DNA from: Pseudidiomarina tainanensis
Lineage (GTDB): Bacteria > Pseudomonadota > Gammaproteobacteria > Enterobacterales > Alteromonadaceae
DNA length: 64,000 bases
Assembly (NCBI RefSeq): GCF_004214835.1
Contig: NZ_PIQJ01000001.1
Coordinates: forward strand, 372,001-436,000
Direction of reading: 5' to 3'
The first letter of the stretch is position 1. Each line of letters starts with the position of its first letter. A program made the translations under genes and the position numbers. This document shows, piece after piece, positions 3,955-56,826 of the stretch. Under the pieces are notes generated by a model that was given only the letters and a program-made list of their open reading frames with translations, did not search any database and was not told the DNA's origin.

Positions 3955-4010
3955 GGGCTTCTCCTGTTTTAATTTGAGCAATTATATCAAAAAGAAAGGC
4001 GAAAAAGGTT

Positions 4011-4080
4011 GGATATTAGCTATTGGATATTAGATATTAGAAAGACACTTCGAATAACCAATAACTAATAACGAATATCG
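4011..4080. repeat. Palindromic intergenic repeat, copy A (diverged)
   Basis: The left arm (4011-4040) is made of GGATATTAG / ATATTAG units. The right arm (4051-4080) aligns without gaps to its reverse complement at 22 of 30 positions. The loop is ~10 nt and purine-rich. It belongs to the same family as the copies at 36421, 53405 and 56677. It ends four bases before the tdk start codon, so it occupies the place where a Shine-Dalgarno should be. Confidence 0.8.
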
Positions 4081-4084
4081 ACCT

Positions 4085-4663
4085 ATGGCTTCACTTTATT
4101 TTACTTATTCGGCAATGAATGCCGGTAAAAGCACATCCTTACTGCAGGTTGCTCATAATTACGAAGAACGTGAGCAACACGTTTTATTATTAACACCATC
4201 GATTGATGATCGGGCCGGGCATGGGCGAATTGCATCTCGGCTTGGTATCGATCGGGAAGCCTTAGCATTTTCGAATACTACCGACCTAGCCGCCTTGATT
4301 GAAGCGCGGCATCAACGTAAGCACATTGATTGCGTGTTGATTGACGAGGCGCAGTTTCTCACTGAAACTCAGGTTTGGCAGCTCACTGACGTTGTTGATC
4401 GGATAGATATTCCGGTCATGTGCTACGGTATTCGAAGTGACGCTTTTGGCAAGGCGTTTCCCGGTAGCGCCGTGTTGCTCGCCGTAGCCGATAAACTCGC
4501 GGAAATGAAAACAATCTGTTTTTGTGGTCGCAAAGCTACCATGAATTTACGCATTGACGCCGAAGGTAACGCAGTAAAAGCCGGCGATCAAATTGCTATC
4601 GGCGGCAATGACCGTTACATCTCTTGTTGTCGTAAACATTGGAAAGAGCGACTCGGCCTTTAA
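4085..4663 (+). CDS. tdk: Thymidine kinase
   Basis: This 192-residue type II thymidine kinase phosphorylates thymidine to dTMP using ATP (pyrimidine salvage). The P-loop SAMNAGKST is at 9-17, the Walker B-like DEAQF at 87-91, and structural-zinc cysteines are visible in CFCGRK and CCRKHW near the C-terminus. Length matches the family (E. coli ~205 aa). The start is fixed by homology to the MAxLYFxYSAMNAGKS opening. Odd: no ribosome-binding site is visible, because a palindromic repeat ends at 4080, four bases before the ATG. The gene is divergent from the adenosine deaminase and followed by a diguanylate cyclase. Confidence 0.95.
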   Translation: MASLYFTYSAMNAGKSTSLLQVAHNYEEREQHVLLLTPSIDDRAGHGRIASRLGIDREALAFSNTTDLAALIEARHQRKHIDCVLIDEAQFLTETQVWQLTDVVDRIDIPVMCYGIRSDAFGKAFPGSAVLLAVADKLAEMKTICFCGRKATMNLRIDAEGNAVKAGDQIAIGGNDRYISCCRKHWKERLGL

Positions 4664-18869: not shown

Positions 18870-18892
18870 CGAATAACGAACAACGAATAACG
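18870..18892. repeat. Half copy of the GATATTAG-type palindromic repeat (copy E)
   Basis: This segment (CGAATAACGAAC... ) matches the right arm of copy A at 4051-4073 at about 19 of 23 positions. No opposite arm of the same family is present, so it is a remnant or half site. It lies inside the mshA-mshQ convergent gap. Confidence 0.5.
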
Positions 18893-18917
18893 ATTTTAGA
18901 TTAACGCCGCTTCGCGT

Positions 18918-18954
18918 CACCCGGCATTACCTTGCGGAGAAAACGCCGGGCTAC
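18918..18954 (-). repeat. REP-like hairpin with GTAG foot
   Basis: Read on minus, GTAG (18951-18954) is followed directly by CCCGGC (18945-18950), a 19-nt loop and GCCGGG (18920-18925). A GTAG tetranucleotide at the foot of a GC-rich hairpin is the signature of REP elements moved by REP-associated tyrosine transposases. An outer imperfect inverted repeat, GCGAAGCG (18860-18867) with CGCTTCGC (18908-18915), surrounds the half repeat. Only one copy was seen in the window. Confidence 0.5.
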
Positions 18955-18956
18955 GG

Positions 18957-18978
18957 TAATCCGGCCTTGGCCGGATTA
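18957..18978. terminator. Palindrome overlapping the mshQ stop codon
   Basis: TAATCCGGCC-TT-GGCCGGATTA is a 10-bp perfect inverted repeat whose right edge is the mshQ TAA. It may terminate the minus-strand mshDOPQ transcript, though no U tract follows on that strand, or be part of the adjoining REP-like cluster. Confidence 0.5.
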
Positions 18979-21900
18979 TTGGCGCTCCATCCAGAAAATG
19001 ACGCGGTCGTTACCTCGATATTGACCAAAGCCGGCTGTTGCGCGCGGATTCTCATTGGTTTCAACCGTGTCATTGCCCCATTCATAGCGCAGCCATGGGT
19101 CCGTCTGATATTCGAACACAAACTCACCAAAGTTATTTGGTGCATTGGGTGCTAGCCAAAATAAATCACCGTAACTCAGTTCACCATTTGTGAGCAAAAT
19201 AGGTCCAGTAGTTTGACCGGCTGTGGTGTCGATCGCATCGGGGTTCTCAACAATGTTTAGGTTGGCGGCCAATACACTCGTACAAGAGTCTAATTCATTG
19301 AGTAAAAAGCGATTACCGTCGAAATATTCACTGTACATGACAATCGGTAAATCTTCGTTTTCAGGACCGAAGATGTTCTCTAAACGCAACCGACCATAGC
19401 GCAGTTCGAGTAGGCCACCGATTGGTGTTGCGACTGTTGGTAAAGTTAATAACGGATCATTTTGCACCAGCATCGTCAAATCGGCCGCAGCGAAATTTCT
19501 TCCATCAATACTCGGGTCAATGAGTTGCAGGCCAAGTTGAAGTTCGGGATAGGGGCCGTCAGGCGCATTATCAGTGCGACGATTAAACGCGATTGCACTG
19601 CTAGCAAAACTAAGCTCACCGGCTAACCAAGTTGTTTGTGGTAGAAAATCAAGCCGATTATAAAACTCGTCAGCGACAATGTCGGAAGGCGTAAGGCTCG
19701 CCGCCCGCATTTGCACGGTTGCGGTATCGTTATAGAGTACACCGCCAGTGTTGGCGTAATTCTTGGTTACTTCACCTAGGCGATTCAACGCTTGAACGGT
19801 ATAACTGACGTCAATGCTATTTTGCCCCATGTAGCTAAAACCAGAGCAGGCATTGAGTACATTGGCCGCAGATACTGCGAAGCGATCTGGATAAAACCGA
19901 CCTATTGGGCTAGGTGGGCGTGAGAAAGCATCGCCAGCGCCGAGATAATCATCAGCCGTCAAACGTGCGGTCAGATTTACGGTGCCAACTTCTTTCCAAA
20001 TTGCCCCAGAAGTTCGTTTGGCACCTGGATAGGTTGGATCAAGCACAAATGGATTATTCAGCGTCAGTTTAGAGCCGTTACTATCAAGGTCGGCAGGGCT
20101 AGGGTAGGCCATCGAATGAAACTGGACCTGCACGCCCGCCGAAGTTGTCTCCAAACCAAAATTTGGGGTCGGGTTGCCCGCCGCGTTGAGTGATTGTACA
20201 ACCATACTGAATGGTGCTGCTGCGGCAGTAAATCCAGCGCCGGTATTCGTTGTACTTGTCCAAAGATCGCCGGCGCTATCAAGCGCGCGTGTTACCAACG
20301 TGTGAGGTTTCACGACAAAGTCATTGATACTGGTGCCGACCAATTCAATGTCAGGATCGCTCAGAGCGGGATTTGAGGCTGATGGCGCTTCGGTAAGTGG
20401 TAATGATGCAAACAACCGAATTTGTCCGACATCGGAATAATTAATCAGCAAATCATGATCAACACGTCCGGTTGCATCAAAGGTCAACGCTAGCGTTTGT
20501 GTGTTTGCAGTGCCTCCTGCAGCATTAAGGCCAATTGCTTGCCCGTCAATAGTGAGTGTCTGGCTGGGTTGGCAGGCGCTGGGGTTTAAACATTGCATAC
20601 CTAAGTTAACGTTGTGAGTGCCGGTAAGACGGGCTTCACAAGCACCGGTGGTTGTGTTGGTCTCTACAGCGCGCAAAGCAGCAGGTAAATCTACACCGGC
20701 AAAGGTTGAAGGGAGCGGACTCATACCATCGGTATCCGTAATAATTAATCCCGCAGTATTAAACGTGACCTCGCAGCTTGTCGGCACGGTGCCGCTACTG
20801 TCATAACATTGTGTTGCTTCAACAGCGGTTGGCGAAGCATTGCTAAGCGCTAATGTTGCTGTGCCACCATTCACATTACGTAGACCGCTACTACCGCTAC
20901 CGTTGCTAAATAGTAAATTAACTTCAGCGCCGGTGGTGGCATCAAGATTGCCACCTTGCCAAACACTATCACCATCACTTGAAGTGATAGTAATCGTAAC
21001 CGGGTCATCATAGGTTGCCGAGCAGGTATCATCGGCACAAGCAATCACTTCAATTGCCGCCGAATAACAACTCACCAAAACTTGGGGGTGAAGCAAACGG
21101 TAATGATGCACTTCGGCGTCTACTGGAGCACAACCGAGTGATGCGGTGACCTCTGCCTGAACTTCCGGACTATAATTGAATACCGTATCGGTACCCACAT
21201 CAATGGTCCCAGCAGTAAGGATACTGCCCTGTAACGTATTGTTATTACCTAAACTAATATCGTTATCGGGAAACGGACCATAAATCGTCCCATTAAAATT
21301 TAAGGTATCTTTGCTACCACCCATATTCCCGTTACCGAGCATGATGGTGGCACCTTCATAGAGATAAATCTGAAAGTTCGCCGCTGAGCCGGAACTATTG
21401 AGTTCAAGTTGGTTGGCATTACTTTCGCCAATGCTGGTCTCAATGAACAATCGAGCAGGTCCGGCACTGGTGGTATTCACATAAATACCGGAATTAAAGA
21501 TGATTTCACGGATGAAGTAATCACCTGCTCCTAAGGTAATACCCGTGCCGCTACCAGTGGCTCCGACGATGAGTTGGTCAATGTAATACGTGCCGCCCAA
21601 GAAATTACCATTCTTACCCCCAGCGACATTAATTGTTCCGTAAGTACCAGCAGGGATATCCTCTGGGTCATTTTTTTTACTGATATTGAGGTTAGGGCCA
21701 CCACTAAAGGTTGGATACACCAAGGGGTCAAGTGGCGGATAGTCCAAGTCAACGGTATCCACTTGACCAACCGGCGTTGGCGTATTCCCGGTGCCATCTA
21801 TCGGGTTGCCATTAATTTCTGAACCGTTTCCAAAGGTAAAACCACCACTACCGACAACACCGTATGTAGTGAGCAACGTCACTTCACTGCAATAATCAAA

Positions 21901-36361: not shown

Positions 36362-36420
36362 GGGGATGCCTCTGTGGTTTCGAGCGAATTGTACCCGAAC
36401 AAGAGACATAAATACAAAAA

Positions 36421-36498
36421 CGATATTAGCTATTGGATATTAGATATTAAAAAAGCAGGGTTAGAAGCGTCGTCGCTAATATCCAATAGCTAATATCG
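36421..36498. repeat. Palindromic intergenic repeat, copy B (perfect 23-bp arms)
   Basis: The left arm 36421-36443 (starts CGATATTAGCTATTGG) and right arm 36476-36498 are exact reverse complements over 23 bp, separated by 32 nt. It sits between divergent darP and pmbA and ends 25 bp before the pmbA start, leaving the AGGAGAGG ribosome-binding site intact. Confidence 0.93.
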
Positions 36499-36523
36499 CA
36501 GTAAGGTTTTCAAAGGAGAGGTA

Positions 36524-53363: not shown

Positions 53364-53404
53364 ACCGTGGATGTGTTTCAAGATGTAAAACAGAAAATAA
53401 AGGC

Positions 53405-53491
53405 GATATTAGCTATTCGATATTAGATATTAGAGAGAACAGAAATACCCGATTCATCAGTCCTAATATCTAATATCGAATAGCTAATATC
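53405..53491. repeat. Palindromic intergenic repeat, copy C (perfect 29-bp arms)
   Basis: Arms 53405-53433 and 53463-53491 are exact reverse complements over 29 bp, separated by 29 nt containing AGAAATACCCG, a core shared with copy D. Lies downstream of zapG and upstream of degQ, both on minus; a transcript through it would fold into a long hairpin. Confidence 0.95.
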
Positions 53492-53502
53492 ATTTTTGGG
53501 GG

Positions 53503-53919
53503 TTATTTGAATAGGCCGGATTTGGTGTCGCTGTAATCACGCGGCATATCACTTGGCGCCTTATCATCCGAGCGGCGTTTTTCGCCCTTTACCTTGTTTG
53601 CCATTCGCAATTCGCGAATAGTATCTTCCGCAAAAAATGGCAAACTTGGCTGCTCTTGCTCACGCTGTAATAAGTCCGCGCTGTGATGTAAATACGCTTT
53701 TAGCTTGTCTTGAGTTTCTTCGAGTTGACCTACCAGAGCTTGAGCAGTTGCAAGGTGCTCGGCAACTTCTTGACGATAATCGGCAAGCTGTTGTTTGGTT
53801 TGGGTAACTTGTTGGTTTAACTCGGCTTCATCCGAATGCTCTGCGAGCCAGTAACGCGCCACAAAAAAACCAACGATTGCGCCTGCTATGACGAGTAAAA
53901 TTCCAACAATCCAGCTCAT
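53503..53919 (-). CDS. zapG: Cell-division/envelope protein ZapG (YhcB, DUF1043)
   Basis: 138 residues: N-terminal membrane helix (~3-22), long coiled coil (~30-90) and a C-terminal segment with PRDYSDTKSGLF that matches the family ending. YhcB links envelope growth and division. Divergent from zapE and upstream of degQ as in E. coli. Confidence 0.93.
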   Translation of the reverse strand: MSWIVGILLVIAGAIVGFFVARYWLAEHSDEAELNQQVTQTKQQLADYRQEVAEHLATAQALVGQLEETQDKLKAYLHHSADLLQREQEQPSLPFFAEDTIRELRMANKVKGEKRRSDDKAPSDMPRDYSDTKSGLFK

Positions 53920-55117: not shown

Positions 55118-56667
55118 CGTTGACTGATTGGACTTTAGCATTGGGTGGACTTGGCCTGCTACTCCTTGGTATGCAGCTGCTAACCGACGGGCTTAAAGCT
55201 GCCGCCGGCACCCATTTGCAAAGCTTTTTAGAGCGTTCGACACAGACACGGTTGCGCGCAGCATTTGCCGGGTTTACCGTCACGGCGCTGGTGCAGGCTT
55301 CTGGCGCAGTAGTTGTCGCTTTGCTCGGCTTTACTAATGCTGGGATGCTCAAGCTCAAACAAGCTGCTTGGGTTGTTTTCGGCAGTAATGTCGGCACCAC
55401 CATGACAGCCTGGATTGTGGCGTTAATTGGTTTGAAGTTTAATGTTGGCATGATTGCATGGCCACTTATTGGCCTCGGAATGCTATTGCAATTGGTGCGT
55501 CGCTCTTCTCCATCAGGCAGTGTCGGGTTAGCTATCGCTGGATTTGGTGTTCTTTTCGTCGGCTTAGACACTTTACGAGATGCTTTCGAGCAACTTGTCA
55601 CTATCATGCCGGTAGAGCAGTTTTCTGTGAGTGGGCCATTAAGCATATTATTAGCCGTTTTTGCTGGTGTGTTGCTGACAGCCTTGATGCAATCCTCGTC
55701 AGCGGCACTAGCAATTGTCTTAACGGCCTCAGTCAGCGGCGCATTTACACCTTTAGCCGGTGCAGCGGTTGTCATTGGCGCCAATATTGGAACCACACTG
55801 ACCGCACTACTTGCGAGTATTGGTGCGACTGCTCACGCCAAGCGCTTGTCGGCAGTTCATGTGTTGATGAACGCTGTCACCGCTGTTGTGGCATTGATAT
55901 TGCTCGTGCCAATGTGGTGGGTTGCTGAAATCCTTTCAGGGGGCGAGCAGGTCACCAATATTAGTACCGGCCTCGCTATCTTTCATACATTATTCAATGT
56001 GCTCGGCTTAGTTCTTATGTGGTTTCTTGATGAGCGTATTTTCCGGCGAGTTGAGAGCTGGTACCGGTTACCGCCATTACGTTCTGGTGAACCACGTTTT
56101 CTCGATAAAACCGTTTTAGAAGTTCCTTCAATGGGCCTGAACGCAATACAGCAGGAGCTCAACCGCGTATTGCGTCAATATGTTATACGTCTGCGCATGC
56201 TCCTCAAAGATGAAGGCGCTTTAAAGGAAACCGAGGAAGATATCGCAACCGGTGAATTGTTAGCTCATATTCAAACCTATCTGACCAAGCTAAGCGCCAA
56301 ACAACTGCATGGCGATGAAGCATTGCTGCTTGCCGAACTGCATACCAGCCATGCTCGCTTGCGCGATCTACGTGATATTGTCGAAAAACTACGTGCCGCA
56401 ACACCGACACAAATTGACGCCAGTTTGAACCACCAACTCCGCGAACAGTTACTCGAGTTACTTAACGGCGCCGACATGAAAGATCGTCCCGAAGCAAACT
56501 GGGCTTCTCTTGTGAGCTCGATACGCGCGACGCGCAACTTGCTCCGTCACACATGGTTAAATCGCATCGCAGCAAACGAGTTAGAACCAACGGAAGGGGC
56601 GGCGTTGATGCAGTTGGCAAGTATGTGGGAACGCAGCGCCGAAATCATCACCGCTCTCAAAACCTAA
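55114..56667 (+). CDS. Na/Pi cotransporter family protein (NptA/YjbB-like) with PhoU-like C-terminus
   Basis: 517 residues: about nine membrane segments in two inverted halves (~1-310), with the paired motifs LVQASGAVVVALLGF / LMQSSSAALAIVLTAS and GSNVGTTMTAWIVALIG / GANIGTTLTALLASIGA, followed by a helical cytoplasmic PhoU-like domain (~340-517). Such proteins export or import phosphate with sodium. The first half has QASGA where the family usually has QSSSA. Coupled to zapE by overlap, with no obvious functional link. Confidence 0.88.
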   Translation: MTLTDWTLALGGLGLLLLGMQLLTDGLKAAAGTHLQSFLERSTQTRLRAAFAGFTVTALVQASGAVVVALLGFTNAGMLKLKQAAWVVFGSNVGTTMTAWIVALIGLKFNVGMIAWPLIGLGMLLQLVRRSSPSGSVGLAIAGFGVLFVGLDTLRDAFEQLVTIMPVEQFSVSGPLSILLAVFAGVLLTALMQSSSAALAIVLTASVSGAFTPLAGAAVVIGANIGTTLTALLASIGATAHAKRLSAVHVLMNAVTAVVALILLVPMWWVAEILSGGEQVTNISTGLAIFHTLFNVLGLVLMWFLDERIFRRVESWYRLPPLRSGEPRFLDKTVLEVPSMGLNAIQQELNRVLRQYVIRLRMLLKDEGALKETEEDIATGELLAHIQTYLTKLSAKQLHGDEALLLAELHTSHARLRDLRDIVEKLRAATPTQIDASLNHQLREQLLELLNGADMKDRPEANWASLVSSIRATRNLLRHTWLNRIAANELEPTEGAALMQLASMWERSAEIITALKT

Positions 56668-56676
56668 AAGCAAATA

Positions 56677-56797
56677 CGATATTAGCTCTTAGATATTGGA
56701 TATTTGAAAAGGACAAATACCCGCTATTCCCTGATATCCAATAGCTAATATCGTCGTCGATGTTTTAATATCTAATATCCAATATCTAATATCGTCG
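56677..56797. repeat. Palindromic intergenic repeat, copy D (composite: one left arm, two right arms)
   Basis: Left arm 56677-56705, loop containing ACAAATACCCG (shared with copy C), first right arm 56733-56753, then a second right arm 56766-56793. The left arm carries a short insertion relative to copy B. The element fills the gap between the Na/Pi gene and the rplM promoter and ends one base before its -35 box. Confidence 0.85.
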
Positions 56798-56826
56798 TTG
56801 ATCTTTTAAGCGCTTTTCCCTATAAT
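56798..56826 (+). promoter_or_regulatory. Sigma-70 promoter of rplM-rpsI
   Basis: TTGATC (56798-56803), 17-bp spacer, perfect TATAAT (56821-56826) followed by CCGCGC, a GC-rich discriminator typical of stringently controlled ribosomal promoters. The transcript would have a leader of about 110 nt. Confidence 0.8.

Follow-up and report, generated by a model that had tools for sequence, protein, structure and literature searches.

Repeat and protein vary together in RAYT systems, short 23S rRNA intervening sequences (IVSs) without an ORF exist, and the STRR sequences of cyanobacteria are heptamers. A RAYT gene lies between two inverted copies of a short repeat that also occurs scattered through intergenic DNA (PMC2817692), and in the Coxiella IVS, which has a 28-bp stem, tandem heptamers (GACAGAT) are placed before the S23 ORF (PMC4990558). 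Heptamer repeats have been described before (PMC4692102, PMC4679880); those of Xanthomonas are mostly comprised of four units and lie nearer to the upstream ORF, and their convergent pairs number 70 in one strain and 75 in another (PMC4692102).

The palindromes presented here were detected in a 64-kb stretch of Pseudidiomarina DNA (the window, meaning the whole stretch that was analysed). They resemble REPIN/BIME-RAYT systems in that a gene lies between inverted copies of a short intergenic dispersed repeat. However, RAYT is a Y1 transposase (IS200/IS605-like), whereas the protein encountered here, S23/IVP, is a four-helix bundle; equally, the REPIN repeat is a GTAG- or GTGG-headed GC-rich hairpin, while the arms studied here are AT-rich direct repeats of heptads with a characteristic end motif. 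The same protein family (S23p) is found in the stem-loop of 23S rRNA intervening sequences of Leptospira and Coxiella, and the present element shares with these a PF05635 ORF within long inverted repeats. The Leptospira and Coxiella IVSs are located within 23S rRNA, from which RNase III excises such sequences, whereas the IVP copies of Pseudidiomarina adjoin rpsT and the small copies are intergenic. Heptads are also dispersed in Xanthomonas and Nostoc (GGGNATC), in Beggiatoaceae (TAACTGA) and as cyanobacterial STRR. With the GGGNATC type the present repeats share dispersed intergenic 7-bp units, mostly four and often convergent, but the heptad differs. No linked protein is named for the published heptamers in the portions of PMC4692102 and PMC4679880 considered here, whereas the arms described below are tied to IVP. 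In the open-licence literature that was searched, we found no publication linking heptad palindromes with IVP.

The window contains 18 copies of GATATTAG against 1.10 expected, a number reached in none of 100 shuffles, and 8 matches to a 23-mer arm (3 or fewer mismatches; 0.00 expected). The original prediction assigned the same arms to five loci, and this holds for four of them. Two of the four, copy B and copy C, possess the perfect inverted arms of 23 and 29 bp that had been described. Copy B as a whole element spans 36410..36509, with 13-bp ends at 36410-36422 and 36497-36509 and three matching heptads in each arm (36423-36443 and 36476-36496) around a 32-nt loop; its perfect inverted arms are at 36421-36443 and 36476-36498. 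It is flanked by divergent genes which, from their sequences, we take to be yjgA-like and pmbA-like. Copy C (53393..53503) has four heptads per arm (53406-53433 and 53463-53490), a 29-nt loop and perfect inverted arms at 53405-53433 and 53463-53491, and its right end is devoid of the CG of the end motif. Folding as single-strand RNA gave z = -7.06 for copy B and z = -9.02 for copy C. The third locus (56666..56805, 140 bp in total) is three-armed: a single arm on the left faces two on the right, which are formed by repetition of the 13-bp end and heptads. The fourth (4000..4091, outer ends set by position alone) is a hybrid, in which a left arm of the ATATTAG type (4013-4040) and a right arm of the TTATTCG type (4051-4078) are separated by a 10-nt loop. 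The fifth locus, 18870-18890 on the minus strand, is a lone array of three heptads (TTATTCG TTGTTCG TTATTCG) of this other type; its arm differs from those of the other four loci, and no partner arm was found for it. No Rfam match was obtained in the window.

Element anatomy was studied in the window and 400 kb of sampled, partly overlapping stretches, which amount to 456 kb after overlap removal. The general plan consists of a 13-bp end, about four heptads NTATTNG, a loop, and then the inverted copy of arm and end. A typical arm reads ATATTAG CTATT(G/A)G ATATT(A/G)G ATATTAG, base 6 of the heptad being the most variable. The commonest loop length is 29 nt (13 of 35 pairs), and the loop sequence is often similar to aactgatgtatcgggtatttgtgttttct, in either orientation. 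Outside the heptads there is a sharply bounded 13-bp motif, AA(AAN)CAA(NNN)CG, derived from 96 arms on both strands, and palindromes with these conserved ends measure ~100-145 bp. In places, the arm and the 13-bp motif are tandemly repeated (L049:9714-10003). Arms within one element are alike in 25.64 of 28 positions compared to 25.20 between elements (117 of 10,000 permutations), thus any correction of arms by each other within an element is weak at most.

Array length is variable, with a few long arrays that are almost perfect (for instance L048:9251-9355), as could be expected of heptanucleotide microsatellites generated by polymerase slippage. Slippage is discussed for heptamer repeats in PMC4692102, and G-quadruplex or translational roles, too, have been considered for the repeats of Xanthomonas/Nostoc and Beggiatoaceae. 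For the family described here we find these explanations hardly credible, because slippage alone produces neither inverted pairs nor a 13-bp end motif and accounts neither for the usual arm of four units nor for the linkage to a single gene family, and ATATTAG has no G-tracts from which a quadruplex could be built.

Concerning gene context, the expectation that the repeats are restricted to intergenic DNA proved correct for 58 of the 61 array groups in the 456-kb sample, while the remaining three are inside rough ORF calls. In two of these three, the heptad runs are short and the ORFs measure 757 and 580 aa. A single GATATTAG of the window, at 21254-21261, is within a 1237-aa ORF. The genes on either side of an element are tandem in 29 cases, convergent in 15 and divergent in 13. 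Where a forward gene precedes, the start of the first heptad lies 10-14 nt beyond the stop codon in 17 of 37 cases, and the AA of the element itself is able to complete the TAA stop codon of the preceding gene.

Searching the whole genome from which the window derives (G000; 2.37 Mb in 5 contigs) with a 22-base arm revealed 235 matches having 3 or fewer mismatches, 122 of them forward and 113 reverse, and none with the reversed arm as a control. The palindromic family is therefore dispersed, as had been proposed, and spread genome-wide, although the suggested hundreds of copies were a somewhat high estimate, as the genome holds roughly a hundred palindromes. The pmbA/yjgA site is occupied by an element in 7 of 26 Pseudidiomarina genomes (read by eye), so the relatives do not all carry an element at one shared orthologous position, in accordance with the original prediction. 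Some orthologous Pseudidiomarina gaps contain ATATTAG-type, TTATTCG-type or REP-like palindromes, depending on the species, and the outer motif may be common to different types, as in G025 compared to G020 and G004 at L036:17546-17642. Because the outer motif is shared across a change of type, replacement of the palindrome interior in place is suggested at the few sites observed. In a broader search, a narrow heptad pattern matched 21 of 369 genomes of the class, with at most 12 matches each besides G000; this search told little, since some reversed controls gave 10 or 11.

One sampled arm pair encloses an ORF. It is located at L040:9060-9590 (L087/L040), in the same genome but outside the window, and has the same arms and the same 13-bp ends as the palindromes. 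We know of no catalytic activity in the S23/IVP fold or family, to which the enclosed protein belongs. The protein matches 23S_rRNA_IVP (PF05635) with 118.7 bits against a cut-off of 33.8 (E=1.6e-34) and also TIGR02436 (four helix bundle). Its nearest solved chain is 2gsc (XCC0516; E=1.6e-22), and a solved relative of IVP is a pentamer (PMC4990558). A search for a cognate transposase with the same termini had been suggested; a gene sharing the termini indeed exists, but it encodes IVP/S23 and PF05635 is not a transposase family. This IVP gene is likely the master copy of the palindromes in the window.

In the genus, IVP is present in 17 of 26 genomes, with one match in each. It is situated in the rpsT/murJ gap in 14 genomes and beside rpsT in the other three, where murJ is beyond the fetched stretch. 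No movement of IVP was seen within the genus, as the gene is beside rpsT in all 17. Codon differences amount to 6 synonymous and 4 replacement changes between G000 and G013, and 14 and 5 between G000 and G018. Using a pattern of at least three heptads, an inverted pair was detected at 9 of 15 Pseudidiomarina IVP loci checked, and arrays at the remaining loci are shorter, interrupted or, in G023, direct. Diversity-generating retroelements, in which the Avd protein occurs, have a linked reverse transcriptase, whereas no PF00078 reverse transcriptase was found in G000. Counting G000, 13 of the 17 genomes with IVP gave this negative result. Reverse transcription by PF00078 is thus ruled out as a requirement, because it is missing from the genome in which the palindromes reside.

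Dispersed arrays and IVP occur together in the genus. Counted with the IVP locus, a generic heptad pattern has 26-390 matches in the 17 IVP genomes; among nine genomes without IVP, seven have no matches and the other two have 57 and 30. Since the locus counts itself, it was subtracted, after which 52-390 matches remain in 16 of the 17 IVP genomes and one in G010. The resulting co-occurrence is 16/17 vs 2/9 (Fisher p=4.0e-4 with G010 taken as negative; 5.5e-5 before subtraction). Reversed-pattern controls gave 0-9 matches in 14 of the 17 IVP genomes and were high in G010 (22, all at the IVP locus), G017 (33) and G023 (51, of which 7 lie at the IVP locus). G010 carries IVP with long arrays and almost none elsewhere. 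Inspection by eye indicates that dispersed arrays resemble the flanks of their own IVP in G000, G001, G002, G011 and G014, and do so partially, with other types mixed in, in G003, G007 and G013, the last having both ATATTAG and TTATTCG types dispersed. In G005, G006, G020 and G025, an IVP of another clade has TTATTCG-type flanks, and many dispersed copies are of the ATATTAG type. The 80-kb samples of G010, G017 and G023 contained no array for comparison.

To follow the association in other bacteria, a profile of 15 Pseudidiomarina proteins was used, and named loci were taken from the best 80 of at least 566 relatives; three of the 80 are from Pseudidiomarina itself (L208, L246, L286). Arrays were defined by period 7 and a self-match of at least 17/21 within 300 bp of IVP. 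Such arrays were detected upstream in 32 and downstream in 50 of these best 80 loci, compared to 5 of 131 far flanks, and lags other than 7 were near zero, save lag 8 (11 and 8). Arrays of period 7 or 8 are present on both sides in 62 of 80 loci vs 0 of 53 far-flank control pairs and on at least one side in 74 of 80 vs 7 of 53, leaving six named loci with an array on neither side at these thresholds. The two arrays of one locus are mostly mutual reverse complements, as their inverted similarity is 0.745 vs 0.501 to other loci, a value reached in 0 of 2000 permutations (computed on the 50 loci having period-7 arrays both upstream and downstream). The own array partner ranks first in 32 of these 50 loci and 19th or worse in seven. 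Scanning 20 of the 80 named loci against Rfam, rRNA included, gave no match.

Furthermore, the order of Dokdonella has IVP in 41 of 121 genomes, and because 12 of the 41 have 2-6 matches, one IVP per genome is not a general rule. Arrays are on both sides in 19 of 30 fetched loci of this order, one of which is also among the 80 named, while single far ends gave 5 of 60. Repeats GGGAWTC are beside IVP in 6 of these 30 loci and resemble the Xanthomonas repeats as portrayed in PMC4692102. In cross-tests, GTGAGGN arrays were found in 7/7 cognate genomes vs 4/18 others and GTCGTTN arrays in 3/3 cognate genomes vs 2/22 others. These counts take in the IVP locus, where all matches in G399 (3) and G415 (5) are located; matches are on several contigs in G397, G398, G400, G409 and G416, and for G394-G396 only counts, with places unlisted, are given. 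One non-cognate genome has 24 matches, and in non-cognate G405 the control equals the signal (12 and 12).

The recurrence of the array-IVP link across phyla, with differing heptads, bears on the nature of the palindromes. Being dispersed, ~100-145 bp long and provided with conserved 13-bp ends, they could be ordinary MITEs, with which they share the form of a short palindromic non-autonomous element, or REP/BIME sequences, the more so as a GTAG-headed REP-like family occupies some of the same sites; an unlinked transposase would move them and IVP would be a passenger between two copies. The recurrent array-IVP link speaks against this. In addition, 27 end pairs from 23 Pseudidiomarina elements were tested at the 13-bp boundary (k=2-9, offsets 0-2), and target-site duplications reaching 5 bp were absent; three or more of these end pairs finish at an inner right arm, and for k=4 and offset 1, two were seen vs 0.41 expected. 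In this genus the elements differ from MITEs in this respect; 5-bp direct repeats are present at two of nine cyanobacterial plasmid sites compared. The only gene found with matching ends is IVP. The description as MITE-like or REP-like therefore applies as far as dispersed, palindromic and probably non-autonomous elements are concerned, but it does not extend to a duplication of at least 5 bp or to the GTAG-headed REP hairpin, which the arms lack. We consider a conventional MITE or REP origin very unlikely.

Evidence for mobility comes from plasmids. The IVP gene was found in 31 plasmid records, mostly cyanobacterial, and 10 of 12 cyanobacterial plasmid IVPs fetched have arrays on both sides (at least 16/21). 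Their neighbours include cas6 and cas4, cas10 and cmr3, and two ribonucleotide reductase genes. Comparison of nine plasmid IVP sites with plasmids without IVP revealed the element present in one and absent in the other, with clean junctions and 5-bp direct repeats at two sites and altered flanks at the other seven. At the first clean site, filled in Trichormus and Scytonema plasmids and empty in Nostoc linckia and Tolypothrix (~98% flank identity), the insert has GTAAT on either side. The second distinguishes pNsp_a from pNsp_c of Nostoc ATCC 53789, with TTCTA on either side and one further base differing. In a sister plasmid from the same strain, the adjacent gap is occupied by a different IVP. 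At the GTAAT site, Nostoc C052 contains an arm and sequence resembling the beginning of IVP, the rest of the gene being missing. Carriage by phages was rejected, as 50,697 phage records contained no IVP match (E 1e-5).

These observations weigh on another explanation, in which IVP acts as a regulator for the host, with the palindromes serving as its operators or RNA targets, selected after stop codons as terminator-like or RNA-stability hairpins and unmoved by IVP. A single gene in a fixed place in each Pseudidiomarina genome that carries it would suit a regulator, and so would the frequent start of the first heptad shortly past a stop codon, the different palindrome types, REP-like included, in some orthologous gaps, and the terminator-like hairpins seen by eye in a few loops. 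Against it are whole IVP elements present or absent at matching plasmid sites, two of them with 5-bp repeats, the different IVP in the neighbouring gap of the sister plasmid, and the location of elements between convergent, tandem and divergent genes alike. On balance, we regard a purely regulatory role as rather unlikely, although regulation is a possible reading, chiefly for the placement after stop codons.

Arrays and IVP firmly belong together. Recognition of heptads by IVP is the simplest account of their joint variation, with binding as its presumed basis, and both the plasmid comparisons and the likeness to RAYT/REPIN suggest that IVP moves the palindromes; it may also be required for their mobility. 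The palindromes of the window are thus probably non-autonomous copies of an IVP-encoding mobile element, spread in trans via IVP. The full element would be comprised of a single S23/IVP four-helix-bundle gene between inverted 7-bp arrays, or 8-bp arrays in some lineages. The IVP of each genome would recognise its own heptad sequence, as DNA or as an RNA hairpin, and would mark palindromes bearing arms of this heptad for copying or insertion, so that geneless arms could also be propagated in trans. Within Pseudidiomarina, many small copies may be fed by a single master gene per genome, as REPINs are by RAYT. Cutting and copying would be performed by host enzymes, and PF00078 reverse transcriptase would not be required.

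A much broader proposal can be put forward only tentatively, and we hold it to be somewhat doubtful. IVP/S23 may represent a distinct and widespread class of mobile elements of ~0.4-0.5 kb without their own transposase or reverse transcriptase, in which the four-helix-bundle protein recognises, in the inverted arms, a heptad code specific to itself and has the host machinery copy the element or geneless palindromes, rewriting older interiors in place; its non-autonomous copies would then include most bacterial heptameric repeats and the short 23S intervening sequences that have no ORF. Intergenic 7-bp repeats and S23/IVP proteins, both unexplained, co-occur in most loci tested (62/80, 19/30 and 10/12). 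If they constitute one element, a binding assay could test the function of S23/IVP, and the origin of many annotated repeats would be explained. Such an element would also provide a second partnership of master gene and palindrome in the manner of REPINs, involving an unrelated and apparently non-catalytic protein.

Some additional features were observed along the way. In the window, positions 18900-18970 contain a REP-like, GTAG-headed GC-rich family (GTAGCCCGGCGTT...). The same family (L290, L292, L288) fills orthologous gaps in G004, G013 and G025, and at some sites the gaps with this family hold heptad palindromes in sister species. A third element type, with arms mixing TTATTCG and longer TGCGCTTCGCTGTTCG units, is present in G004, G006, G018 and G020 (L292, L293, L289, L291), and at the IVP locus of G005 (L084); this type also occurs beside clade-B IVP genes. 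In G023 (L082), long arrays in direct orientation on both sides of IVP are mixed with palindromic GCGCAGCGCACGAACA units. Octamer (period-8) arrays were noticed at 13 named loci, including L209, L262 and L271, and 10 of the 13 are without a period-7 array. In the plasmids of L294, L304 and L305, IVP is within CRISPR-Cas operons (cas6|cas4, cas10|cmr3), and relatives without IVP at the CRISPR-Cas site were seen for L304 and L305. Judged by eye, loops at L031:827-932, L033:18750-18844 and L045:2201-2301 have a GC-rich hairpin followed by T-runs, similar to intrinsic terminators. Tandem tRNA-like genes, two complete and a third represented by its end, are located at L044:10750-11270, and a heptad array follows each of them.
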